64,000 nucleotides of DNA from positions 32,401 through 96,400 of IMG/VR virus record IMGVR_UViG_3300035661_000025; one strand, 5' to 3'. The notes beneath the pieces are model-generated. The model did not search any database, had not been told where the DNA came from, and was given only the letters and a program-made list of their open reading frames with translations. Shown piece after piece: positions 305 through 46,692 of the stretch. How positions within the stretch are numbered: the stretch's first letter is position 1; each line of letters opens with the position of its first letter. This stretch comes from a virus. Both the position numbers and the translations under genes were made by a program.

Positions 305-1042
305 ATGAGTAATTTCATAATTTTAAACAAACCTCATTATTCCACAAACATACAGCGAGAATTAATTCAATTGAGTGATGATGAACTTGCTGAGGAATTA
401 TTCTATAGTACTGATTGGTTTACGGATGAATTGTTTGAAGCTCGCACAGATTTGTCAATGTCAATAGGAGCAGAATATAGCCGTCTTATGGTTGATTATG
501 AAAAAATAAACAACATAAAAGAACCTGGAAATGCTATTGGTAGAGGTGTTTTGTATACTCATAATTATCAAGGGAAACTTATGAGATTAATTGATGATAA
601 ATCCAATAAGTTTTTGGCTAGTTATGAAAAACGATTAAAATTTTTCAATGAGCAAATATCACTTGCTGAAAGTTTTTTTGATGAAGTTATCATAATAGAT
701 TGTCATTCTTTTGATACACATTATACTAATGTAGTTAACAATACTCCGGGAATGAAACACCCAGATATTTGTATAGGATATAATGAAAAAAATTGTAATC
801 TGTTGAAAATTCAAGAACTAAAAGAACACTTCAAATCTTTAGGTTATTCGGTTAACTTAAATTTTCCTTTTTCCGGAAGTTATTTGCCTGAATACAATAT
901 AGAAAATCCTAATGTGTTTACGGTCATGATAGAAGTAAACAAAGATCTTTACATGAGTAAAGATGGATTTGTACCTCTTAAGAAAGATTCTTTTAATAAA
1001 TTAAAAGAAGATATAACTAATGGTATTATGATATTCGCATAA
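305..1042 (+). CDS. N-formylglutamate amidohydrolase-family protein
   Basis: This 245-residue protein carries the landmarks of the N-formylglutamate amidohydrolase family: TDWFTDELF near residue 37, SRLMVDYE near 60, GRGVLYT near 80, the metal-site stretch IDCHSF near 131, PDICIGYN near 154, and the late NFPFSGSYLP and MIEVNKDLYM motifs. The family hydrolyses formylated glutamate or related amides, in bacteria in histidine breakdown. The substrate in a phage is unknown. The start follows a GAAA-rich leader four bases after the primase stop, suggesting one operon. Its 3-prime end overlaps the convergent downstream gene by 17 bases. Confidence 0.75.
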   Translation: MSNFIILNKPHYSTNIQRELIQLSDDELAEELFYSTDWFTDELFEARTDLSMSIGAEYSRLMVDYEKINNIKEPGNAIGRGVLYTHNYQGKLMRLIDDKSNKFLASYEKRLKFFNEQISLAESFFDEVIIIDCHSFDTHYTNVVNNTPGMKHPDICIGYNEKNCNLLKIQELKEHFKSLGYSVNLNFPFSGSYLPEYNIENPNVFTVMIEVNKDLYMSKDGFVPLKKDSFNKLKEDITNGIMIFA

Positions 1043-1610
1043 AAATAACTACTCTAGGGTCTTCAGGATGGACCTTTCCTTCATCATCTACAAAATCAGA
1101 AACTCCGTCTACAATAGCGTAAGCTTCTCCTGGAGTTCCTGAATTCATTGATTTATCAATTTTGAATCCATGTCTCGAGTATAATGAATATAATGGACCA
1201 TAAATTTCTTTACCTTTACGAAACGCAAAACAATCTAAATGTTTCGCCCCATTTTTCACAGCACTTTTCATAATAGCATCTCCAGAAGATCCCTTCGTAC
1301 TAAAAACCGAGACCAATTCATCTCCATGGTTTATTGCATAACCCGATGAGTTATTGTGACCCAAAAAACATTTCATTTTATTATAATCACTACGATTATA
1401 AACAGACAATGTCTCTAGACCTTTATGTGGCAACCCTTTATTGAGCTTAGCTATATCATTTTCTTTTATTTTAGAAATAGCTCTAAAGAACGTAGTCCCG
1501 TCCACTTCTGAAAAATCATTCTCATCAAATAATTTTTGACCTTTTTCTAATTGCTCAGGAGAAAGTCTCCCCATATCATAAAACTTTTCAAATAATTCTT
1601 TTAATGTCAT
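1026..1610 (-). CDS. Putative GNAT-like protein, late gene
   Basis: The 194-residue product has a helical N-terminus and a C-terminal half with a possible acetyltransferase-like core: DELVSVFS (strand), GDAIMKSAVKNGAKHLDCF (helix then strand) and LYSLYSRHGFKI, which resembles the 'lYxkxGF' ending of GNAT proteins. No clear acetyl-CoA P-loop is visible, so the fold is a guess and an unrelated phage domain is equally possible. A TATAAATA box on the minus strand at 1648-1655 sits 38 bases before the start, which suggests late expression. It is convergent with the amidohydrolase gene. Confidence 0.35.
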   Translation of the reverse strand: MTLKELFEKFYDMGRLSPEQLEKGQKLFDENDFSEVDGTTFFRAISKIKENDIAKLNKGLPHKGLETLSVYNRSDYNKMKCFLGHNNSSGYAINHGDELVSVFSTKGSSGDAIMKSAVKNGAKHLDCFAFRKGKEIYGPLYSLYSRHGFKIDKSMNSGTPGEAYAIVDGVSDFVDDEGKVHPEDPRVVIFMRIS

Positions 1611-7685: not shown

Positions 7686-7693
7686 TATAAATA
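7686..7693 (+). promoter_or_regulatory. T4-type late promoter box
   Basis: TATAAATA lies 28 bases before the ATG of the leader-bearing small protein at 7722. The distance matches the one at the capsid gene. Confidence 0.6.
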
Positions 7694-7721: not shown

Positions 7722-7973
7722 ATGACAGATTTTAAAACGTTTATTGCTGGTTCTATGAATGAAGCAGATGGTAAATTTGACAGTGTTGATTTTATGATGG
7801 CGTTTGAAGATGGTGATGTTAATGCAAAACAAGCAATTGATGGTTTCGCGGAACTTATCAAAAGTGGTATTGTTTGGAATCTTCAAGGTGTATATGGTAG
7901 AACTGCAAAAGCATTGATTGATGCTGGTTATATCAATAAAGCTGGTAAGGTTCTTAAATACCCAAAAGACTAA
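7722..7973 (+). CDS. Probable packaged internal protein with capsid-targeting leader
   Basis: The 83-residue protein begins MTDFKTFIAGSMNEA. This leader is like the T4 capsid-targeting sequence (MKTYQEFIAEA) and contains a prohead-protease-type site MNE|A after residue 14. The same spacing occurs in the proteins at 14546, 14767 and 16678. The body (AFEDGDVNAKQAIDGFAELI... ) is not recognised. A late promoter box precedes it and a strong terminator follows, so it is a single-gene late unit. Role inferred: internal head protein injected with DNA. Confidence 0.5.
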   Translation: MTDFKTFIAGSMNEADGKFDSVDFMMAFEDGDVNAKQAIDGFAELIKSGIVWNLQGVYGRTAKALIDAGYINKAGKVLKYPKD

Positions 7974-7999
7974 AAAAGTAAGAGTACTCTTACTTTTTT
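7972..7999. terminator. Strong intrinsic terminator
   Basis: AAAAAAGTAAGAGT is followed at once by its exact complement, giving a 12-pair stem with a GTAC loop and a run of T. It sits directly after the stop of the gene at 7722. Confidence 0.8.
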
Positions 8000-8031
8000 T
8001 AATAAAGAATTAATTATAGTTCTTTATTAAA
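7998..8031. terminator. Second hairpin, tandem terminator
   Basis: TTTAATAAAGAA (7998-8009) pairs perfectly with TTCTTTATTAAA (8020-8031) around a ten-base loop, with an A-run after it. Together with the hairpin at 7972 it insulates the late gene from the early promoter at 8053. Confidence 0.6.
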
Positions 8032-8037
8032 AAAAGA

Positions 8038-8058
8038 TTAAGAATATTATGATATAAT
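8038..8058 (+). promoter_or_regulatory. Early promoter, TTAAGAATAT plus extended -10
   Basis: TGATATAAT ends at 8058 with TTAAG ten bases upstream of the hexamer. It drives genes at 8084 and 8776. Confidence 0.65.
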
Positions 8059-8083
8059 TAGTGTAAAGATTGAAGGATAGAAG

Positions 8084-8773
8084 ATGAATTTACCTAAGCA
8101 TTTAATATTATCCATAAAACGAAATGTAGGTGGGTGTTGTAACCATTGTGGGCGAAGCCTTAAACATGTAGTTCAAATAAAAGAAACTGAATCTGGAGAT
8201 ATTTCAAATTTAGGTGCTGGATGTGTTAAAACTGTTACCGGAAAAACTTTAAAAGATATTTTCAAAGAGGAAAAAGTTTACAAAGAAGCCACAAGAATTT
8301 TGGATATTAACAATAAAGGTAAAATCCGAATCCAGGAATACAAAGAGCTAAATGAAGATATGATGAACTTCATAGAAAGCAATTTAGATAATCCATTTTT
8401 GAAATCTATGTACAAGACAATTGAAGAATTTGGAACTCTGTCACCAAATATGTACAACACCGTTTACTCAATGATGTTGCCATTGGAAACCGAAAAAAAT
8501 CCAAAAGATGTAGTAGCGAAAGTTATTAAAGTATCTAAAAAACAAACTGATTTTGGGACAAATTGGACTTTATTTGTAGAACAAAACAGAAAACTCTCTA
8601 GATTATTTTTCAGTTCTTTGAATGCAAAAAACCATGATTTATTTGTAGAATTAGGTTTGTTGGAACCGGATGGTAGTATTTTAATAGATCCACTATCTAA
8701 AGACATAAAGGTTATGTTCTCCGGAACATTTGATGGTTATAAAGTCAAAAGAATAAAAATTAAAAAGGGATAA
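8084..8773 (+). CDS. Cys-rich hypothetical protein, 229 aa
   Basis: The N-terminal region has CCNHCGR (residues 18-24) and GAGC near 44-47, a probable treble-clef or zinc-ribbon site seen in phage proteins of unknown role. The rest alternates helices and strands with no catalytic motif visible. AAGGATAGAAG precedes the ATG. It is the first gene after the promoter at 8053 and lies two bases from the next gene. Confidence 0.6.
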   Translation: MNLPKHLILSIKRNVGGCCNHCGRSLKHVVQIKETESGDISNLGAGCVKTVTGKTLKDIFKEEKVYKEATRILDINNKGKIRIQEYKELNEDMMNFIESNLDNPFLKSMYKTIEEFGTLSPNMYNTVYSMMLPLETEKNPKDVVAKVIKVSKKQTDFGTNWTLFVEQNRKLSRLFFSSLNAKNHDLFVELGLLEPDGSILIDPLSKDIKVMFSGTFDGYKVKRIKIKKG

Positions 8774-8775
8774 TA

Positions 8776-9324
8776 ATGTTTGGTTTATTTAAAAGAAAAT
8801 TAAATTTTGTTGACAAAACAGAAAGATTGGTCAATTACACATTTCCTAAAGCTATAGTATCGAGTTTCAATGATAAATTCCCAGGTAAGTTTGACGAAGC
8901 GGAAAAAGGTTTAAAGTTATTCTTCTTTTTGATATTGTGGAATGAAGAAGCCAATTTTTCTGATATGATAGAAATGTATAATAAAAACGCTAATGAGTTG
9001 TGGAATATATTTCTATCAGATGCTAAAGAATATGCAGATTTTTGTGACCATGTGTTTGGACACTTTATTCATTATACTTCATACGATACAGAAAAAGAAT
9101 TAGAGGAGTACTTCATTAAAGCTAGCCGAGAAGTTTTAATCGCTCTTGATAAAATTCAAAGAAGCGATAATGATTCTCACCTATATATGATAACGTGTTT
9201 GGATTTAGATACAAAAATCAAACCTTCAGGACCTATTATGTCATCTGAAACAGATGACTCTCAAACAGATACCCGTTATTCGGAAAATGCATTAGTTTAT
9301 TTATCTTCAGTATTATATATCTGA
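8776..9324 (+). CDS. Glycine-rich-domain-protein-like protein (GRDP fold)
   Basis: The 182-residue protein has a stretch LWNIFLSDAKEYADFC followed by DHVFGHFIHYTSYD (residues about 75-100) that resembles the 'WHxfILxTxxYxxFCxxxfGxFIHHxP' signature of the plant and bacterial glycine-rich domain-containing protein family. The function of that family is not established. The last 30 residues are acidic and low-complexity (SSETDDSQTD). A moderate match only. Confidence 0.45.
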   Translation: MFGLFKRKLNFVDKTERLVNYTFPKAIVSSFNDKFPGKFDEAEKGLKLFFFLILWNEEANFSDMIEMYNKNANELWNIFLSDAKEYADFCDHVFGHFIHYTSYDTEKELEEYFIKASREVLIALDKIQRSDNDSHLYMITCLDLDTKIKPSGPIMSSETDDSQTDTRYSENALVYLSSVLYI

Positions 9325-9556
9325 TTCACCGTATCTTTAGTTATTTAAGTTCATCTTGTAGCTTAAGCTCATGTAGCGTTGGAGATGGTAAATGTGAATA
9401 GCGTTTATAGGCAACTTAAACTAATTTTAAGGTTATTAGACAGATTATGAAATGTATTCTTTAGAAGAAAAATCTAAAGAAACTTTTGGAAGCTCACGAA
9501 TACCTCAAACATAAAAAGGTAAGTTAAATTATACTTATGAAAAAAGGATTTCAAAA
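9325..9556. other. Intergenic region, 232 bases, no gene supported
   Basis: It holds only reading frames of up to about 20 codons without ribosome sites. A TTTAAGTT element near 9345 has no TATAAT behind it. A weak TTATACTT near 9529 could be the promoter of the gene at 9557. No tRNA cloverleaf can be drawn. Confidence 0.4.
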
Positions 9557-10495
9557 ATGATTAATGAATATATTAAACACTTGTCACTGAATGACAAGAA
9601 AACACTTACTCAAAAAACTCTAAAGCTTGCAGAAGAGCTTGGTGAATTGTCTAAAGTTATTCTTCCTTTTGAAGGAGCTTATGCTACAAATCATCGGATG
9701 TATGATACTCAGAAAATTTTAGAGGAGCTTGCTGATATTCATTTGGTAAATCAATCAATTTTATATTCTATGGGTTTTTCATATTCAGATTTTGATAATA
9801 TGGTTATCAATAAATCAAAAAAGTGGCAACAGCTTCAAATTAAGGAAGATTTTTCCTTGTCAAAAAGCGATCTTATGCCATATGAAATTCACATTACTGT
9901 AAATACTGAAGATGGTATTGATATTCAACAATACAAAGAAGATTGTGATGAGATTGGAGTTAAGCCTATAGTCCTTGCATTGCAAGATCAATCTGCAGTA
10001 AAAGTTATGAATGATGTTATGACTTCTAGTAAATTTGTTGGTAATAATGGAGAAGCTTTCAAAGAAATGACTAGTATATCAGACGCTTTAGCTAATAAAG
10101 GATACACCGTTATTAGAAATAAAATTGAGGCAAGTTATTGGCATCCTAAAGCTCCTTTTAAACAAGCGGGTGATACAAAAATGCCAGAGGGTTGTTATTT
10201 TGAATGTCATTTTAACGTAGAATGTACTGATGAAAAATTATCAGTCTTATCTGAAATTGCTAAGGCACGTAAATGTCATTTATCTCAAAATGTATTTAAG
10301 GTAAAAGAAGATGGTGTGTTTACAATAATGATGACTTATCGAAGTTATACCCAAATGTTTGAAGATTTTGATGAACATTTGAACTCAATAAAATATGATC
10401 TCAATATGTTTGGATTTCCGCTTGAAAAAGAAATTGTGGAGTTCTGCGTTTATGATTCCAAAATAACACATGATGCTAAATGGTTAGAAGCATAA
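9557..10495 (+). CDS. MazG-like pyrophosphohydrolase fused to an unknown domain
   Basis: Residues 1-100 look like an all-alpha NTP pyrophosphohydrolase: KLAEELGELSK (E-x-x-E) and KILEELADI (E-x-x-D) are the metal-binding helices. Residues 109-312 begin PYEIHITVNTEDG and contain VKPIVLAL, DVMTSSKFVG, IEASYWHP and YFECHFNVE. This second domain seems to be a conserved uncharacterised alpha/beta module with possible catalytic His/Cys. MazG-type enzymes hydrolyse NTPs, including alarmone-related nucleotides. The fused domain may use the same nucleotide, which is speculation. Confidence 0.65.
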   Translation: MINEYIKHLSLNDKKTLTQKTLKLAEELGELSKVILPFEGAYATNHRMYDTQKILEELADIHLVNQSILYSMGFSYSDFDNMVINKSKKWQQLQIKEDFSLSKSDLMPYEIHITVNTEDGIDIQQYKEDCDEIGVKPIVLALQDQSAVKVMNDVMTSSKFVGNNGEAFKEMTSISDALANKGYTVIRNKIEASYWHPKAPFKQAGDTKMPEGCYFECHFNVECTDEKLSVLSEIAKARKCHLSQNVFKVKEDGVFTIMMTYRSYTQMFEDFDEHLNSIKYDLNMFGFPLEKEIVEFCVYDSKITHDAKWLEA

Positions 10496-10520
10496 TTTAA
10501 TTTTAACTTCAATATTAATA

Positions 10521-10529
10521 TGTTATAAT
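10521..10529 (+). promoter_or_regulatory. Early promoter, extended -10
   Basis: TGTTATAAT lies in the gap after the MazG fusion, with TTTTAACTT upstream. The leader to the gene at 10625 is about 90 bases long. Confidence 0.6.
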
Positions 10530-10581
10530 TATGTTAAGAAAAGAAATAGCGAAAAATGTAAGAATACTAACGAAGAAACCT

Positions 10582-10601
10582 TAGGTTCAACCTATATTTT
10601 T
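10582..10601 (+). promoter_or_regulatory. Small hairpin with T-run in leader, possible attenuator
   Basis: TAGGTTCAACCTA forms a five-pair stem, followed by TATTTTTT, inside the leader between the promoter at 10524 and the ATG at 10625. It could terminate part of the transcripts. The stem is short. Confidence 0.3.
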
Positions 10602-10624
10602 TAATTTATGTTAAAGGAAATATC

Positions 10625-10780
10625 ATGCCAGTAAAAGATCTAATTGATTTTTTATCTACATTAGATTCAGAAACCATTCTATATAAATGTTATGTAGAAC
10701 AAACTCCTGGAAATTTTCAAGAACTGATTTTACCAGTTATAGATGAAACTGGAGATTTAATTTTCCAAAAAGGAAAATAA
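10625..10780 (+). CDS. Small hypothetical protein, 51 aa
   Basis: A 51-residue acidic protein (MPVKDLIDFLSTLDSETILYK...). AAAGGAAATATC precedes the ATG, and the next gene starts directly after its stop. Similar short proteins precede phage ABA-sandwich genes, but nothing specific is visible. Confidence 0.55.
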   Translation: MPVKDLIDFLSTLDSETILYKCYVEQTPGNFQELILPVIDETGDLIFQKGK

Positions 10781-11137
10781 ATGGTATCTAAAAAAATATT
10801 AGATGCTGTTTTGGGGTTGAATATAAGACAATTTGAAATAGTTGGTAATGATATTATATATCAAGTTTTTGAAATGTCTAAAGATGAAAAAATTAACATC
10901 TATGAACTTGCACATAAATGCAAAGAATGGGCTGTTATGTTACAACCAAACAAACAAGCGCTTTCCTCTTACCCACGATGGGGTAATCATAAAGACTATC
11001 CAGAAACAAACGGACACTATTATATTTGTCAACATTTGGTTACTGGCGTACAATTTGAAGCAGAAACAGAGCCAGAAGCAATATTTAAAGCTTGTGAATG
11101 GATATTAGATAATTGTTTAAAAATCTCTTTTAATTGA
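10781..11137 (+). CDS. Hypothetical protein, 118 aa
   Basis: The protein has a layout like small phage 'ABA sandwich' proteins: N-terminal strand and helix, ELAHKCKEWA near residue 44, PRWGNHKDYPETNG, and a final helix EAIFKACEWIL. AAAAGGAAAATA precedes its ATG, which directly follows the previous stop. No function can be given. Confidence 0.55.
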   Translation: MVSKKILDAVLGLNIRQFEIVGNDIIYQVFEMSKDEKINIYELAHKCKEWAVMLQPNKQALSSYPRWGNHKDYPETNGHYYICQHLVTGVQFEAETEPEAIFKACEWILDNCLKISFN

Positions 11138-11199
11138 TACAATTCAATACAGTAACATCAAAGGTATAGACTCCAATATTACAATGAATAAGGATTAAA

Positions 11200-12252
11200 A
11201 TGCCAGAAAAATACCACTCATATCGTAACCATATAAAACCTATGCTTATGAGAATAAAAGATGATATTCATCTTAACGGAATAGATGGGGAGTCTAAAAA
11301 ACGAATTTTATATTTAGCTGCAATATTTCATGATATATATAATGTTGCTGGGAATATCAAAAATGAAGAAAACAGTGCTGAATATTTTCTTCATTGTTAT
11401 CATAATAAACAATTCATTTTGCCGGCATTGTTTTTTGAGTCCTCATTTAAAGATAATTTATCTATAAATCATCAGTTTATTGTAAATGCTTATGAAGATG
11501 GTTTTATTCCTTTCAATATAATAGAAAATGTTACTGAAGAAGAAAAAGATAAAATCATTGAATTGATTATGAACACCAAAGATACTTTTAATAAAAGACA
11601 CGGAGATGAACTAGGTCATTATTTTTATTTGCTTGATACTTATATACTCCGAGAGGGATTTTATGATTTAATTCAATATGAACATGGCATTTATAATGAA
11701 TATAAAAACAAATATACTCTTGCTGAATATAAAAAAGGTAGAATTGAGTTCCTGCAAAAATGTCTAGAAGAAATTCAAACAGTAAATGAATATGGAATAA
11801 AACAATTAATAAAATACGTTGAAGAAAGAGATTATGGATCTGTAGGAATTTTTGCTGGATCTTTTAATCCATTTCATATTGGTCATAAAAATGTTCTAGA
11901 ACAAGCAAAACGAGATTTTGATAAAGTTATAGTTATACAAATGCAGGATTTTAATAAACCAGTAAATGAATATCGAATGCCTAAATTGAAAGATTGTTTA
12001 GTAATTACTTCAAATGAGACGTTAGTAAACGTATTTGAAACTTACAAACAAGGACATAGAAGCGCTAGCATAGTTAGAGCTCTAAGAAATGGAGATGATC
12101 TTCAACACGAACAAAACTTGAAATTGGTTGTACATGATTTTAATAAACATGTTAGATTTACATACTATCTTGCGGATGAAGGTTTTAGTCATATCTCATC
12201 ATCTCTTGTAAGATCTCTTCCTGATGATCTGAGAGGAAAATATCTTGTTTGA
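11200..12252 (+). CDS. HD-domain and phosphopantetheine adenylyltransferase-like fusion
   Basis: Residues 1-190 form a helical HD-type domain with LAAIFHDIYN (His44-Asp45) and a later GHYFYLLDTYILRE. Residues from about 215 are a nucleotidylyltransferase: GIFAGSFNPFHIGH (the HxGH signature), IVRALRNGDDLQHEQN (like the CoaD RGLRxxxDxxxE element) and SHISSSLVRSL (the ISST-type ending). The second half matches phosphopantetheine adenylyltransferase best, with NMN adenylyltransferase as an alternative. It may make coenzyme A or NAD precursors, and the HD part may hydrolyse a nucleotide. It overlaps the next gene by eight bases. Confidence 0.75.
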   Translation: MPEKYHSYRNHIKPMLMRIKDDIHLNGIDGESKKRILYLAAIFHDIYNVAGNIKNEENSAEYFLHCYHNKQFILPALFFESSFKDNLSINHQFIVNAYEDGFIPFNIIENVTEEEKDKIIELIMNTKDTFNKRHGDELGHYFYLLDTYILREGFYDLIQYEHGIYNEYKNKYTLAEYKKGRIEFLQKCLEEIQTVNEYGIKQLIKYVEERDYGSVGIFAGSFNPFHIGHKNVLEQAKRDFDKVIVIQMQDFNKPVNEYRMPKLKDCLVITSNETLVNVFETYKQGHRSASIVRALRNGDDLQHEQNLKLVVHDFNKHVRFTYYLADEGFSHISSSLVRSLPDDLRGKYLV

Positions 12253-12514
12253 TAAATCTTACATATATAACTCATCTGAATTTAAAATAACAGAATCATT
12301 ACTTCAGAACTTAAAAAATAATGATGTAATAAGCGATTATGAAATAAAAGTAAATTCAGGATATGAAAATACTATAAATGATATAGAGCAGGAATTATCC
12401 GACATTCCCAAGCATGGTCATAGACACATTCATTTACTACAAAATCCATTAATAAATGTTAACATTTACCCAAAACGGGCTATAGAACACATCACTATAT
12501 CCATAAATATTTAA
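12245..12514 (+). CDS. Hypothetical protein, 89 aa
   Basis: The likely start is TTG at 12245 inside the end of the fusion gene, with GAGAGGAAAA upstream. The product has an acidic middle and a KHGHRHIHLLQN stretch that could bind metal. No family recognised. It is coupled to the upstream HD-PPAT gene and followed by AAAAAGGATAAGAC of the next gene. Confidence 0.5.
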   Translation: MFDKSYIYNSSEFKITESLLQNLKNNDVISDYEIKVNSGYENTINDIEQELSDIPKHGHRHIHLLQNPLINVNIYPKRAIEHITISINI

Positions 12515-12526
12515 AAAGGATAAGAC

Positions 12527-12676
12527 ATGGAAAAAGATAATCGAGAAGAAAAATTACAAATTGAATTAGATGAATTATTGTCTCTTTATGAATACATGCC
12601 TGATGAAGATAAAAAGAAAATGCTGATAGATATTATTAGACTTGAAGATGAAATAGATTATTTAACCAAAGGATAA
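12527..12676 (+). CDS. Small acidic helical protein, 49 aa
   Basis: A 49-residue charged helix-forming protein (MEKDNREEKLQIELDELLSLYEY...). AAAGGATAAGAC precedes the ATG. Its end holds the ribosome site (AAAGGA) used by the nuclease gene starting at 12680. Function unknown. Confidence 0.55.
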   Translation: MEKDNREEKLQIELDELLSLYEYMPDEDKKKMLIDIIRLEDEIDYLTKG

Positions 12677-12679
12677 GTC

Positions 12680-13405
12680 ATAAAATTCGCTCCATATAGT
12701 TACTCAAAAATATCATCATTTGCCTGCCCTAACCGATTCAAATTATCTTATATAGATAAGATTAAGGTTTCCAACACTAGTCCTGCTTTAGAAAAAGGGA
12801 CTTTCGTACATCTTGTATTGGAGAATTATGAAACGTTTAAGCAATCTAATTTTCGAGATTTTCCTGATTTTAATTTTAGTGTCCTTACTTCAGACGAGCA
12901 AGAAACAGCTAAACAAATAGTTAAAAAGTTTATAGACTCAGACATAGGAAAATATTATCTAGAAAATAATGAAGTCATAGGTGAAGAAGTCGAATTTGGT
13001 TTAGATAAAAAATTAAATCCCGTTGGGTATTATAGCAAAGAAGCCATAATACGTGGAAAGATTGACAAACTAATCATCAAAGATTCTGAATATATCATAA
13101 TAGATTACAAAACTGGAAAATTTCCAGAAGCGCAATATCACGATAATGGTCAAGGTATTTTATATGCATTATGGTTTTTTAGAAAGTATCCAGAAATACA
13201 AGAAATAAAAATGACTTATGTGTTTGTGGAGCATCTAAAAGAACATGTGTACACATTCAAAAGACAATACCTTCAAAATTATGCAACATTATATAGCAAT
13301 AAAATCATAAAGATAGAAAAATGTGAAGATTATGTAAAAAATGAAACGAAGCTTTGTGATTATTGTGATTATAGAAAATCAGGGTATTGTTTTCCTGAAA
13401 CATAA
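12680..13405 (+). CDS. Cas4/RecB-like PD-(D/E)XK nuclease with ATA start
   Basis: The conserved domain begins upstream of any ATG, GTG or TTG: the frame after the stop at 12674-12676 reads IKFAPYSYSKISSFACPNRFK, then GTFVHLVLENY. ATA at 12680, with AAGGA about seven bases before it, seems to be the start; the only later standard codon is TTG at 12818, which would delete the first conserved block. Active-site elements are IRGKIDKL and IIIDYKTGK. One Cys near the N-terminus plus CDYCDYRKSGYC at the C-terminus make four cysteines, as in Cas4/AddB-type 4Fe-4S nucleases. Cas4-like proteins have been reported from Campylobacter phages. Probable role: DNA end processing. Confidence 0.75.
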   Translation: MKFAPYSYSKISSFACPNRFKLSYIDKIKVSNTSPALEKGTFVHLVLENYETFKQSNFRDFPDFNFSVLTSDEQETAKQIVKKFIDSDIGKYYLENNEVIGEEVEFGLDKKLNPVGYYSKEAIIRGKIDKLIIKDSEYIIIDYKTGKFPEAQYHDNGQGILYALWFFRKYPEIQEIKMTYVFVEHLKEHVYTFKRQYLQNYATLYSNKIIKIEKCEDYVKNETKLCDYCDYRKSGYCFPET

Positions 13406-13433
13406 ATAATTTAAATTTTATTAAGGATTTTCA

Positions 13434-13805
13434 ATGAAAAAATATATCGCAGAGTTAGACAGAGATTCAATAAGCTTAGATTTAGGTTTTAAAATCGCTG
13501 TAATTCATAATGGAACTGTTTATTCAGAATCTGAAGTTACAACTAAATTCCCAAAATATTTCAAAGAAGTAAAAGGTGAAGAAACAGATTCAGTTGCTAA
13601 AGAGGAAATTTTGTTAGTAGATGATTCATCTAAAGTTGAAGTTAAAACTGAAGAAGCTCCAGTTGAGCAATCGGAAGTAGATTCATCTACAGCGGAAGAA
13701 GCTCCAGTTGAAGTTAAAGTTGAAGAAATTCAAGAAGCTCCAGTTGAGTCATCAGAAGATGACTCAACTTCTGATGAGCAAAAAACTTCTCGTAAAAAAT
13801 CGTAA
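13434..13805 (+). CDS. Acidic repeat protein, 123 aa
   Basis: Residues 1-50 look folded (MKKYIAELDRDSIS...FKIAVIHNGTVYSE). The remainder is a low-complexity acidic tail with EEAPVE-type repeats (four near-copies) and a basic RKKS end. It lies just before the neck gene, so it might be a head or core protein; EIQE|AP could be a protease site. CATAAATA at 13404-13411 is a near-late promoter. Function not known. Confidence 0.5.
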   Translation: MKKYIAELDRDSISLDLGFKIAVIHNGTVYSESEVTTKFPKYFKEVKGEETDSVAKEEILLVDDSSKVEVKTEEAPVEQSEVDSSTAEEAPVEVKVEEIQEAPVESSEDDSTSDEQKTSRKKS

Positions 13806-13814
13806 GGCTGATTT

Positions 13815-14543
13815 ATGGCTACCATAAAAACTAAAAATGATTTGTCTGAGTATATACTAAGAAAATTAGGTAGCCCGGTTATTGATGTAGAGGTTTCTCC
13901 TGACCAACTATCAGATATTATAGACTCTGTAATTAGAGAATATTCAGAATATGCTATGGATGGTCAAGAAGAAAAATGTTTTATTATACCTTTGGATAAA
14001 GATATAAAAACGTACATTTTAGATGACCATATTTACTCAATAATCAATCTTAGAACGGCATCTAATTATTCTCCGTTCTCTATTCCTGGTGGATATATTA
14101 TTAATAACACATACAATTTCTTAGGATTTGGAAACAACGGACCTATGAGTCTTAGTGATATTCAGATGTTGACTACACAGTTTCAAATGATTCAAGATTA
14201 TTTCAATATTCCTATAAATCATACTTATAACGCTAACAACAACAAATTAATCTTTTTAGATGAGACTAATATAACTAATACTCATATGTTAGTTCATTGT
14301 TGGAGTTATTATAACCCAGATGAAGTAGATGGTATTTTTAATCATCCTTGGATTAAAGACATGAGTGTAGCTAAAGCTAAATTGCAATGGGCTACAAACT
14401 TAGGCAAATATAATGCACCTCTTATAAATGGAGCTACTATAAATTATAGCGACATTTATTCTCAAGGTCAAACAGAAGAGGAACGTTTACATCAAGAATT
14501 GCTTGATAGATGGTCACCTCCATTAGGAATAACAGTAGGTTAA
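13815..14543 (+). CDS. Neck protein, T4 gp13-like
   Basis: The 242-residue protein starts DLSEYILRKLGSPVIDVEVSPDQ and has IDSVIREYSEYAMDG, the usual opening of T4-type neck (head-to-tail connector) protein gp13. A middle Gly/Asn-rich part and a C-terminal helical region (AKAKLQWATNLGKY) follow. Gp13 closes the filled head and provides the tail attachment site. T4 gp13 is longer (about 309 residues). It sits among capsid genes, which fits. Starts after AAGGCTGATTT, nine bases beyond the acidic protein. Confidence 0.65.
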   Translation: MATIKTKNDLSEYILRKLGSPVIDVEVSPDQLSDIIDSVIREYSEYAMDGQEEKCFIIPLDKDIKTYILDDHIYSIINLRTASNYSPFSIPGGYIINNTYNFLGFGNNGPMSLSDIQMLTTQFQMIQDYFNIPINHTYNANNNKLIFLDETNITNTHMLVHCWSYYNPDEVDGIFNHPWIKDMSVAKAKLQWATNLGKYNAPLINGATINYSDIYSQGQTEEERLHQELLDRWSPPLGITVG

Positions 14544-14545
14544 AA

Positions 14546-14770
14546 ATGAAAACATTTAAATATATAGCAGAAAATGATCTTAACGAAGCAATGAAGCTTC
14601 CTGATATTATTTCCAAATTAAATAAAATTCACAAACAAATAGGTGAATTAGCTAATCAACTAGATAAAGATCTTTATGATTCTTCTAAAGTTTCTAATAG
14701 TGTTAACCCGATTTTAAACGGAATTAAAGATCTAATTGAAAAATTGAGTAAAGGTAAATTAAACTCATGA
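14546..14770 (+). CDS. Probable internal head protein with cleavable leader
   Basis: The ATG at 14546 follows the gp13-like stop by two bases. The 74-residue protein starts MKTFKYIAENDLNEA, nearly the T4 capsid-targeting sequence, and has a protease-type site LNE|A after residue 14, at the same place as in the proteins at 7722, 14767 and 16678. The mature part would be a 60-residue helical, coiled-coil-like peptide (IHKQIGELANQLDKDL). It overlaps the next gene by four bases. Confidence 0.55.
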   Translation: MKTFKYIAENDLNEAMKLPDIISKLNKIHKQIGELANQLDKDLYDSSKVSNSVNPILNGIKDLIEKLSKGKLNS

Positions 14771-15111
14771 ATAAGTTTAAAGAATTTGTTCTAGACTCAA
14801 TGAATGAAGCTGGTGTTAAACCCTTCATCAAAAAAGTTGGTAAAAAAACGTGGGTAGTTAAAATAAATGCCTTGGGTTCAGACCAAGGATTTGCTGAGTA
14901 TAATTTCGGTCAACAAATCGATCCATTAAAAAAGGTAAAAGCTTGGAAAGAAGATGCTAAAAAAGAGTATGTTGATGCAAAAGGTAAAGCAACATTACAA
15001 GCTGTAAAAGATTGGATTAAAGTTAAAAATCCTTCTGAATTTTATGCTTCATGGGAATCTGATTCACCAACATATAAAGATGATTCTGTAGAAATCTTTT
15101 ACAAAGATTAA
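14767..15111 (+). CDS. Probable internal head protein with cleavable leader
   Basis: The 114-residue protein begins MNKFKEFVLDSMNEA with the predicted protease site MNE|A after residue 14. The mature part is basic and beta-rich (KPFIKKVGKKTWVVKINALG, AEYNFGQQIDPLKKVKAWKEDAKK), which would suit packing with DNA. The gene is coupled to the upstream leader protein (ATGA overlap) and is convergent with the gp4 gene, sharing its stop region. Confidence 0.55.
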   Translation: MNKFKEFVLDSMNEAGVKPFIKKVGKKTWVVKINALGSDQGFAEYNFGQQIDPLKKVKAWKEDAKKEYVDAKGKATLQAVKDWIKVKNPSEFYASWESDSPTYKDDSVEIFYKD

Positions 15112-15572
15112 AACAGATCTTCCTCTGTAATAATACGAAATTCCAGTTTATTTAAATCACAAAATTCTCTAGCCGCTTTCCATTTACATTGGTTAGTGAT
15201 ATATGTTTTCATAGCTTTCTCAAAACCTAAAACGCTTTTAGATGTTTTCTTTTTGGGTGGTTTTGGAGGCATAGTTTCTTTTAATGGTTTTATTTCCACT
15301 AAACATCTTCTAATATTTCCCCCACTATCTTCATATTCCATATATAAGTCTACAAAATATCTATGCATTTTTTGATCTGCCTCATTAAAATAAGGTATAG
15401 GAAATGGTTCTGAGCTCCACTTTTTTACAGCTGGGTTCATGTCACAAAATAAGAAAAACCGTTCCTCCCAGCTAGACATATATCTTATTCCTTTTCCAGA
15501 AGTTAATGATTGTTTGGAGTTAATATATTTTTCTGGTTTTTTTAGGTTATACCATCCTTGTTTCGGTGCCAT
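15108..15572 (-). CDS. Head completion nuclease, T4 gp4-like
   Basis: The 154-residue product shows the gp4/TnsA-like nuclease pattern: NLKKPEKYINSK, IRYMSSWEERFF (the conserved SSWE), DMNPAVKKWSSEPFPIPY, HRYFVDLYMEY with the active-site Asp, LVEIKP (E-x-K) and a final KWKAAREFCDLNKLEFRIITE. In T4, gp4 trims or completes the packaged DNA head and is needed for infectious particles. AAAAGGAATAAC precedes the ATG on the minus strand. It faces the leader-protein genes. Confidence 0.85.
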   Translation of the reverse strand: MAPKQGWYNLKKPEKYINSKQSLTSGKGIRYMSSWEERFFLFCDMNPAVKKWSSEPFPIPYFNEADQKMHRYFVDLYMEYEDSGGNIRRCLVEIKPLKETMPPKPPKKKTSKSVLGFEKAMKTYITNQCKWKAAREFCDLNKLEFRIITEEDLF

Positions 15573-15690
15573 GTTATTCCTTTTACAATGTAAGTAATTT
15601 GTATAACTGAATTATTCTTATAACTTCCAATGTGATAAAATTTTCCAGCTTAAAAAAAGTCCGATTGATATGAAAAATACCTTTTTTGAA

Positions 15691-15702
15691 TATTTATAAA
15701 TA
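15691..15702. promoter_or_regulatory. Palindromic late promoter, both directions
   Basis: TATTTATAAATA contains a full TATAAATA on each strand. To the right it is 27 bases from the major capsid ATG; to the left it is about 120 bases from the gp4-like gene. Confidence 0.65.
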
Positions 15703-15728
15703 CATCAATTAATAACTAAGGACATTTT

Positions 15729-16667
15729 ATGAAGAAATCACAGTTAGATTTAATTATTGAAAATTCAATAAAAACAAAAATTCAAGAACTAGTGAAAATG
15801 GATGAAGCTACTACAAGTGCAGATATTGTACCTACGGATAGAATTATTGGAGAACTTATTAAAGAAGTTTACCCATCTTCACTTGCAGGACAAATTTGTA
15901 GTATACAACCATTAACAGGTCCAGAAGGTCATATTATTGCAATTGGCCGTAAACGTGATGCAAATGATAATGTTATTGAAGGACCTGGTTCAGGTATAGA
16001 AACACGTAGAACTTTAGTAACAGCAAAAGATCACATTTTAGAAACAGATTTCACTATTGAATTTATACAAGATATGATTAATTTGTATGGAGAAGATGGT
16101 TATAGTTTCCTAGCAGCTTGGTTGAAAAACACATTAATTGAAGATATGAATAGTGCATTAATTGCTGATATTCGTGCATGTGCAGGAGATGCAGGGCATC
16201 TCATTCCTAAAACAGATTCTGATTTTGATGGTGGTACACACTCAATCATCTATAAAGCACAAAAACTTTACGGGGAAATTCTATCAAAAACAAACCGTTT
16301 CTTTAACCCATTTGTAATCTGTACACCATCAATTGGTATGATGTTAACATTGGGTTCAGATTCAGTTGAGAAAACAGAACATAAAAACTACCTTGGGACT
16401 GTTGCAAATTTTCAGATTTATATCGATAACAATGCAACAGATGATTATGTAATCGTAGGACATCAAGGGAAAGACCCAGGTGATGCAGGATATATTTTCT
16501 CACCTTATGTAACACAGGTGTATGAATCCACATCAGGTCATGATGGTACAATGAAAATATTTGTTAATAACAGATACGCATTAACAAAAAATCCAGCAGA
16601 TCGTGATGAAACTGGCACAAATAGCGATTTCTTTTATAAATTTACAGTTGATCTTTCAGCGTTCTAA
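15729..16667 (+). CDS. Major capsid protein, T4 gp23-like
   Basis: The 312-residue protein is the most likely capsid subunit. It has an N-terminal helical delta segment ending KMDE|A at residue 26, a T4-type prohead protease site, followed by TSADIVPTDRIIGELIKEVYPSSL, PLTGPEGHIIAIGRKRD, and an extended HK97-like body (TRRTLVTAKDHILETDFTIEFIQDM). Its leader of 26 residues is shorter than the 65 of T4 gp23, and the protein is smaller than gp23 (about 520). A strong palindromic late promoter and AAGGACATTTT precede it. Confidence 0.8.
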   Translation: MKKSQLDLIIENSIKTKIQELVKMDEATTSADIVPTDRIIGELIKEVYPSSLAGQICSIQPLTGPEGHIIAIGRKRDANDNVIEGPGSGIETRRTLVTAKDHILETDFTIEFIQDMINLYGEDGYSFLAAWLKNTLIEDMNSALIADIRACAGDAGHLIPKTDSDFDGGTHSIIYKAQKLYGEILSKTNRFFNPFVICTPSIGMMLTLGSDSVEKTEHKNYLGTVANFQIYIDNNATDDYVIVGHQGKDPGDAGYIFSPYVTQVYESTSGHDGTMKIFVNNRYALTKNPADRDETGTNSDFFYKFTVDLSAF

Positions 16668-16677
16668 GGAATAATAA

Positions 16678-16995
16678 ATGAATTTTTCTGAATTTGCATT
16701 AAAGGATTTTATCATTGAAGGTGCAGTACCTTCAATTAAAGCTGTTAGAGAAAGAATAAAGATAATTACATCTTTGAATGAAAAACCAAAAACAGATCCA
16801 GTTTTTGAGATTCAACGATTATTAAGAATATCTGGATATAAAATAAAAAACACTTCGTATGATGCTAAAGGAAATGCTTACATTGAATTAGCATTTTCAA
16901 GCGATATAAAAGATGCTATGAAATATTTAGAAAATCTCGACAATCTACCAACAGAAGTAGAAATAAAAGACAACAAAATATTCGTTCATGCTTAA
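16678..16995 (+). CDS. Leader-bearing small protein downstream of capsid gene
   Basis: The 105-residue protein begins MNFSEFALKDFIIEG, which again puts a protease-type site (IIE|G) after residue 14. The rest (IKAVRERIKIITSLNEK..., YIELAFSSDIKDAMKYLENL) looks like a small alpha/beta domain. It is ten bases after the capsid stop and likely on the same transcript. It ends in a 12-base palindrome (16988-16999) that contains both its own stop and that of the convergent gene. Confidence 0.5.
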   Translation: MNFSEFALKDFIIEGAVPSIKAVRERIKIITSLNEKPKTDPVFEIQRLLRISGYKIKNTSYDAKGNAYIELAFSSDIKDAMKYLENLDNLPTEVEIKDNKIFVHA

Positions 16996-45617: not shown

Positions 45618-46211
45618 ATGCAGAAATTCTCTCAGTTCATCACAGAAACTATTTCTTATGACCAAATTATAAAAGCTATAAAACTAAATAATCTAAACGG
45701 ACCTTTCCTTTGGCGAGGAGTAACTTTCAAATTAGATGATGATTTTGGTTTGAAAAAAGTTAGAAAAGATAGAGAATCTCTATCTAATTACTCTTATCAT
45801 TATGAATTTAATGAGCTGTTTTTCAAAAAATTTAAATCTAAATTAAGATCTGAAGCTGTTTTTTGTGTAAAAAATCAACATTTAGCTGCAGATTATGGAA
45901 CTCCTGTAATTGTTATACCTAAAGATAAAGCTAAGTTTTATCATTCGCCATTTGTTAAAGACTTAATTACATTTGATAAAATAAAATTAAATCTTCAAAA
46001 TAATGAGATTCTGAAAGATAAAAAAACCATAGAAGAAAAATTACAAGCAATAGTAGATACATATATTGAATATTCTGATATTTCTAAAATAAAAGATAAC
46101 AATGAAATAATGATATTATGTAATGAATATTATTATATTAATGTAGAAAATATGCCGTATATGCATACTTATGAGGATTTAGTTGATTATTTGGAGGAAA
46201 ATAATGTTTAG
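45618..46211 (+). CDS. Putative packaged ADP-ribosyltransferase-like protein
   Basis: The 197-residue protein begins MQKFSQFITETIS, close to the T4 internal-protein leader MKTYQEFIAEA, with ITE|T as possible protease site. The body has GPFLWRGV, VRKDRESLS, LRSEAVFCVKNQHLAADYGTPVIVIP and SPFVKDL, an arrangement that looks like small phage ADP-ribosyltransferases (R-G strand, a Ser-containing middle strand, later acidic region). It is driven by a late box. A packaged effector of host takeover, as T4 Alt is, is a reasonable guess; the enzymatic assignment is weak. Confidence 0.35.
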   Translation: MQKFSQFITETISYDQIIKAIKLNNLNGPFLWRGVTFKLDDDFGLKKVRKDRESLSNYSYHYEFNELFFKKFKSKLRSEAVFCVKNQHLAADYGTPVIVIPKDKAKFYHSPFVKDLITFDKIKLNLQNNEILKDKKTIEEKLQAIVDTYIEYSDISKIKDNNEIMILCNEYYYINVENMPYMHTYEDLVDYLEENNV

Positions 46212-46692
46212 CTTCAAAACATATCTAGATGATTTGAACAATCAAGTGAATACTTTTGATTTAAATAAAGATTTAATAGAGACTATTATAGATCCTTGTA
46301 TAAAATACTCTAAACGATTAAAAAATAGAGATTTATTTTTTATAGAAACTAATTTTTCAAATATACAAGGTCCAGGTATAATAGTTAAAAACATATTAGA
46401 ACCAACTGAAGTTAAAAGAGAAGGTGAAAATGTTTTTATACCAATAGATTTATTTCAATGCACACAGATCGTAAATAATGAAGAAATCAAAACTTTAAAA
46501 ACTCTTGAAGAAAGTATTATAATGTTTGAATCTAATAATTATTTTATTTTAAACTTATCTAGATTATTTTCATTTATGAACAAGAGCAAATTAAATAAAA
46601 TAAAATCTATTAATGAAGTTAAAACATACAGTGATTTAATTTATTTTTTAACTGTATTTAAAGATTATTACAATTATAGGAGAGGAAAATGA
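46204..46692 (+). CDS. Hypothetical late protein, 162 aa
   Basis: ATG at 46204 has GGAGGAAAATA upstream and overlaps the previous gene by eight bases. It begins MFSFKTYLDDLNNQV, which has the aromatic spacing of the leader family but no clear protease site. The rest (IDPCIKYSKRLKNRDLFFIETN, IQGPGIIVKNILEPT) is not recognised. Likely late. Confidence 0.5.
   Translation: MFSFKTYLDDLNNQVNTFDLNKDLIETIIDPCIKYSKRLKNRDLFFIETNFSNIQGPGIIVKNILEPTEVKREGENVFIPIDLFQCTQIVNNEEIKTLKTLEESIIMFESNNYFILNLSRLFSFMNKSKLNKIKSINEVKTYSDLIYFLTVFKDYYNYRRGK

Follow-up and report, generated by a model that had tools for sequence, protein, structure and literature searches.

Internal proteins of phage T4 attach to the prohead core by way of a short leader, which the protease gp21 removes; the mature bodies remain in the head and are then injected, and IPI, Ip2 and Ip3 act as inhibitors of type IV restriction enzymes (PMC3012670, PMC7411985, PMC12373910). 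The ejection proteins of phiKZ and SPN3US are likewise packaged in the head, where a prohead protease trims them (PMC5694885, PMC7411985). Here, a stretch of 64,000 nucleotides (nt) is considered (the window), spanning bases 32401-96400 of the 96,400-base viral record IMGVR_UViG_3300035661_000025, itself a fragment. Between positions 7722 and 16995, the window carries four small genes (starts 7722, 14546, 14767 and 16678) whose proteins share a similar 14-residue leader. These proteins are predicted to be capsid-targeted, protease-trimmed and injected internal head proteins of a T4-type phage, a reading to which we assign a probability of roughly 0.88.

The resemblance to T4 IPI, IPII, IPIII and Alt includes a short propeptide, an aromatic start (MKTFKEF in ipI, MKTYQEFIAEA in ipII and ipIII) and an [LIM]xE/A-type site (a slash marks the cut throughout), as well as unrelated bodies, a gp21-type protease, a T4-type head module and cargo swapping. 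Unlike in T4, the cargo comprises a DUF7417 domain, a domain with the motif KDDSVEI and a kinase, and the genes are scattered, several with their own late promoter. In phiKZ and SPN3US, most propeptides exceed 100 residues, and SPN3US has an AxE site, whereas propeptides of 8-15 residues and [LIM]xE sites are found here; the four leaders themselves have 14 residues with L, I or M at P3, and thus neither the long propeptide nor the AxE site of the phiKZ type.

All four open reading frames (ORFs) begin where the original prediction had placed them, behind plausible ribosome-binding sites, and all carry the Glu14 followed by Ala or Gly that it had described (Table 1). The resulting leader ends, MNE/A, LNE/A, MNE/A and IIE/G, fit the gp21-type [LI]xE/[AGS] site with L, I or M at P3, and the Met at P3 is also seen in the MDE/A of the 15729 protein of the same phage. 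BLAST comparisons among the members aligned residues 1-18 alone, as for 14767 and 7722 (56% over these residues), and found nothing of note between the bodies, in agreement with the claim that these are unrelated. The leaders had further been called aromatic and basic; the first term is apt, while the second is rejected, as the isoelectric points of the four leaders are acidic (4.4-4.9). Similarly, a common length of 14 residues holds for the four, whereas sites in the wider set described below lie at about residues 8-15.

The leader was searched for across the contig, a search having been proposed for the complete phage genome, using a joint pattern of an aromatic core and an [LIMVF]xE[AGS] site. 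This pattern matched 6 of 168 genes, compared with an average of 0.34 in 2000 shuffles (largest value 4), and had no match at 562 internal Met positions; it yielded two new members outside the window (L001:4319 and L001:9385). As a control, the site scan of T4 recovered ipI (MKTFKEFTSTTTPVSTITE/A), ipII and ipIII (both MKTYQEFIAE/A), gp22, gp23 and gp24, while the first 50 kb of Campylobacter phage CP220 gave no clear leader enrichment. In T4, gp61.1 (L045:18966-19130, minus strand; 54 residues) also begins with an IPI-like leader, MKTFKEFIKED.

A gp21-type protease, without which the original prediction was to fall, was found on an overlapping contig, G001 (IMGVR_UViG_3300037010_002878). Across 12,025 and 4,964 compared bases (17 kb), this contig matches the window with 100% identity, indicating that the two come from one phage or from almost identical phages, and it extends beyond the right end of the window. 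Here, a T4-type module encodes, in order, the gp20 portal, a 75-residue protein in the gp67 position, gp21, the gp22 scaffold and gp23. The gp21 protein (phrog_207, E 2e-54; Peptidase_S77, E 5e-29) conserves His78 and Ser131 in alignment with T4 gp21, the residues that are catalytic in the Peptidase S77 family. The major capsid protein gp23 (phrog_138, E 1e-98) has a candidate site, MLKE/G, found by inspection, which, like the MDE/A at residue 26 of the 15729 protein, is of the same type as the leader sites. That MDE/A had been attributed to the capsid protein; the site is present, but since the true gp23 lies on G001, the 15729 product is rejected as major capsid protein and is instead a second member of the gp23/gp24 family, probably the vertex protein.

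Judging from the whole contig, the same removable tag appears to be carried by about ten unrelated small proteins. Besides the four genes and the two joint-pattern matches outside the window, these comprise leader-like genes at L001:9896, L001:13459 and L001:13747, the latter encoding a zeta-toxin-like kinase. Of two outlying members suggested earlier, the one at 45618 is plausible and has its own late promoter, while the one at 46204 is doubtful, lacking a cleavage site. A search of ten leader proteins with PADLOC gave no match. A further gene in the window (1026-1610, minus strand), with its own TATAAATA promoter and the N-terminus MTLKELFEKFYDMG, is a possible leader gene, and its relatives begin with MTFQKL[LI]EKFTD.

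The leaders are modular with respect to their bodies. The 7722 protein matches DUF7417 with 76 bits against a curated cut-off of 27, and its homologue in Streptomyces phage Unstoppable, 52% identical, begins at the DUF7417 domain and is leaderless; no relatives of the 7722 protein were found in a search of viral contigs. In the kinase, the leader is kept in Escherichia phage Lw1, where gp231 (53% identical) begins with MKSFKDFVSLDE/ALITFGG, and the kinase is present in 217 phage records. The 14767 domain occurs in ten other viral contigs with unrelated N-termini, yet by inspection all ten homologues have Glu followed by Ala, Gly or Val just upstream of the domain, with a hydrophobic P3 in nine. 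A protein search of 50,697 phage records gave no match to this domain, and neither the solved nor the viral folds included a match to its predicted structure (predicted local distance difference test score 72); searching PDB sequences with a profile was equally empty. The slot between the neck and gp4-like genes, here occupied by 14546 and 14767, holds a zinc-ribbon-like protein in L004 and L006, with the leader MKFKSFIFEDE or MKFRKFVLEDE. On these comparisons, the leader is read as a transferable tag, acquired by DUF7417, the KDDSVEI domain, the zeta-toxin-like kinase, a very basic protein and others.

The expression signals described for 7722 were both recovered: the late promoter, and a terminator (-10.4 kcal/mol, z -3.1) that a consensus scanner had missed because of its low G+C content. 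Within the window, 10 of 15 TATAAATA sites lie 25-60 nt upstream of a start (0.37 expected), the top share among 248 A/T octamers. Such sites precede 7722, 15729 (with 16678 downstream) and 45618 (33 nt), and the variant AATAAATA is found 33, 26 and 28 nt upstream of L001:4319, 9385 and 13459, respectively. Several leader genes are thus predicted to have their own T4-type late promoter. Over the whole contig, the element occurs at 5 of 10 leader genes and 14 of 131 others (Fisher p 0.004), and in L001 and L002 at 4 of 49 genes, three of them leader genes (p 0.002), although these p values are indicative only, since the leader list and the promoter variants were chosen by the analysts.

Table 1 Features of the region and leader-like genes elsewhere on the contig.
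Position	Strand	Feature	Details
7686..7693	+	T4-type late promoter TATAAATA	36 nt upstream of 7722
7722..7763	+	Leader 1, MTDFKTFIAGSMNE/A	predicted cut before Ala15
7722..7973	+	Cargo gene 1: leader and DUF7417 (residues 25-80)	PF24192 E 1.9e-21; phrog_3908
7972..7999	+	Terminator-like hairpin	12-bp stem and U run
13815..14543	+	Neck protein, gp13-like (head-tail adaptor Ad2)	phrog_211 E 2e-29
14546..14587	+	Leader 2, MKTFKYIAENDLNE/A	cf. T4 IPI start MKTFKEF
14546..14770	+	Cargo gene 2	mature body 60 residues, basic; no family above cut-off
14767..14808	+	Leader 3, MNKFKEFVLDSMNE/A	
14767..15111	+	Cargo gene 3: leader and ~85-residue '..DSSSYKDDSVEI.Y' (KDDSVEI) domain	
15108..15572	-	Head-closure/completion protein, T4 gp4-like	phrog_218 E 2.9e-47
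15695..15702	+	Late promoter TATAAATA	34 nt upstream of 15729; probably also used by 16678
15729..16667	+	Second gp23/gp24-family capsid protein, 312 residues	PF07068 E 1.6e-32; predicted MDE/A at residue 26
16678..16719	+	Leader 4, MNFSEFALKDFIIE/G	E14 and G15 invariant in relatives
16678..16995	+	Cargo gene 4	adjoins gp24-like gene in related contigs too
45618..46211	+	Probable further member	MQKFSQFITE/T; late promoter of its own (45585)
46204..46692	+	Doubtful member	aromatic leader MFSFKTYLDDL, without cleavage site
L001:4319		Joint-pattern match, outside window	MLFTEFLNNRDNILE/A
L001:9385		Joint-pattern match, outside window	MNFKNFILPE/A
L001:9896		Leader-like gene, same contig	MKTFEEYMILE/E
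L001:13459		Leader-like gene, same contig	MTFKKLIE/S
L001:13747		Leader-like gene, zeta-toxin-like kinase	MNIFKDFVLGLNE/V

In the proposed mechanism, the cargo would be synthesised late, carrying at its N-terminus a propeptide of some 8-15 residues (M-x1-3-[FY]-x2-[FYI] ... [LIM]xE), which would dock the protein onto the prohead core. At prohead maturation, the gp21-type serine protease would cut after the Glu, and the trimmed body would be retained in the head and ejected into the host along with the DNA. Most of the bodies may then have an early role in counter-defence or host takeover. Proteins delivered with phage DNA act ahead of any phage gene expression, and the small number that have been characterised, T4 IPI, Ip2 and Ip3, block restriction enzymes. 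With a leader that is recognisable in the sequence, small phage genes annotated as 'hypothetical' can be listed as injected effectors for testing.

It could instead be that some or all members are parts of the prohead core or scaffold, like T4 gp67 and gp68, and are degraded and lost rather than retained and injected as effectors. The 16678 protein, for example, stays beside the gp24-like gene in relatives with its leader kept (63-69% identity) and may itself be a structural core component, and on contig G012 the 14767 domain is fused after a gp67-like protein, beside gp21-gp22-gp23. Yet in relatives the locus of 14546 and 14767 is occupied by other cargo that bears a leader but is unrelated to them, the families of 7722 and the kinase are unrelated to scaffolds, and short-leader proteins are those retained in T4 (PMC7411985); a core or scaffold role for some or all members is considered unlikely. 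The hydrophobic, aromatic N-termini would also suit another kind of signal, such as an amphipathic helix for a membrane, host factor or replication complex, but this is most improbable when a gp21-type site closes a leader closely matching that of T4 IPI, three members have head and neck genes as neighbours and late promoters precede several. Chance likeness between short, low-complexity N-termini can be dismissed with still greater assurance: F, K, I, N and E are common in this AT-rich genome, and the cleavage site taken by itself is enriched only about two-fold (21 genes, compared with 11.2 in shuffles), but the enrichment of the joint pattern, the out-of-window members and the conservation of leaders in relatives led to its rejection.

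Several points count against the interpretation as internal head proteins. The joint pattern was drafted after the first four members were known and was then refined, leaving the two out-of-window matches and the T4 control to bear most weight. In the wider set, the sites differ in position and in the P1' residue, and some leader-like genes, such as 46204, have none. The TATAAATA element is not over-represented in the window (15 sites against 19.6 expected), only its placement is. Finally, gp21 lies on an overlapping metagenome contig, outside the window's own record, and that 96.4-kb fragment gave no match to Peptidase S77. The T4-style combination of a capsid-targeting leader and a gp21-type protease is nevertheless well supported by the G001 gp21, the extra members and the T4 control.

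Comparison with other viral contigs points to a re-tagging of shared cargo among T4-type phages, each lineage using leaders of its own. On the 98-kb contig G009 (IMGVR_UViG_3300001687_000013; L030-L034), a leader of the type M-x-[KT]-[AS]-x-x-[IL]-[LI]-x-L-[LIFM]-E is found on 43 of 174 genes, compared with 2.8 in shuffles (maximum 8), on genes with varied codons and differing bodies, and the contig carries a T4-type gp20-gp21-gp22-gp23 module. A third type, M[LI][KR]EI[IVLF]E, occurs on 11 of 164 genes of G011 (L050-L055), where shuffles expect 0.17. The KDDSVEI domain stands behind each genome's own leader, beginning with MNKFKEF here, MIKATDILDLME in G009 and MLREIFE (MLKEI[IL]E type) in G011. 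While the leader set of the present phage is of a known kind, that of T4-type internal proteins, such lineage-specific leader types and re-tagging are less expected, and targeted full-text literature searches, with incomplete journal coverage, found no description of them. We consider it rather probable that each T4-type lineage has its own leader 'dialect' read by its own core and protease, with cargo re-tagged between lineages and some of it made as polyproteins with prohead-protease sites. If true, leaders would be a general means of cataloguing the proteins, many of them anti-defence, that uncultured phages inject.

For example, one G009 leader gene (L031:3600-4232, minus strand), starting with MRTANELINLSES, matches Tad6, an inhibitor of type I Thoeris (PF25188, E 1e-28), which suggests a head-packaged anti-defence protein. 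On the same contig, a leader is seen on a fusion of a RimK-like ATP-grasp and a zinc protease (L030:1238-2650, minus strand). A candidate head-packaged polyprotein is the 779-residue ORF of G014 (L022:2982-5321), which starts with MKTFKELKAQINEA, ends with the 14767 domain and has about eight junctions of the ES-V-[DE]-[LI]-x-E-[AG] type (ESVELDE[AG]) between its segments, one of which matches Methylophilales phage Melnitz. This ORF recalls polyvalent proteins, e.g., DdrB of P1 (PMC5512222), which are also packaged multi-domain effectors but whose release is attributed to a metallopeptidase of their own, whereas the junctions here resemble gp21-type sites.

As judged from its sequence, the phage is of T4 type and belongs to a distant lineage. 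Its gp23 is ~50% identical to that of Vibrio phage Va1 and 48% to those of Campylobacter phages such as CP220, and a DNA search of the 50,697 phage records gave no near match to the region. Eleven transfer RNA genes lie close to the end of G001 (L008:427-2897).

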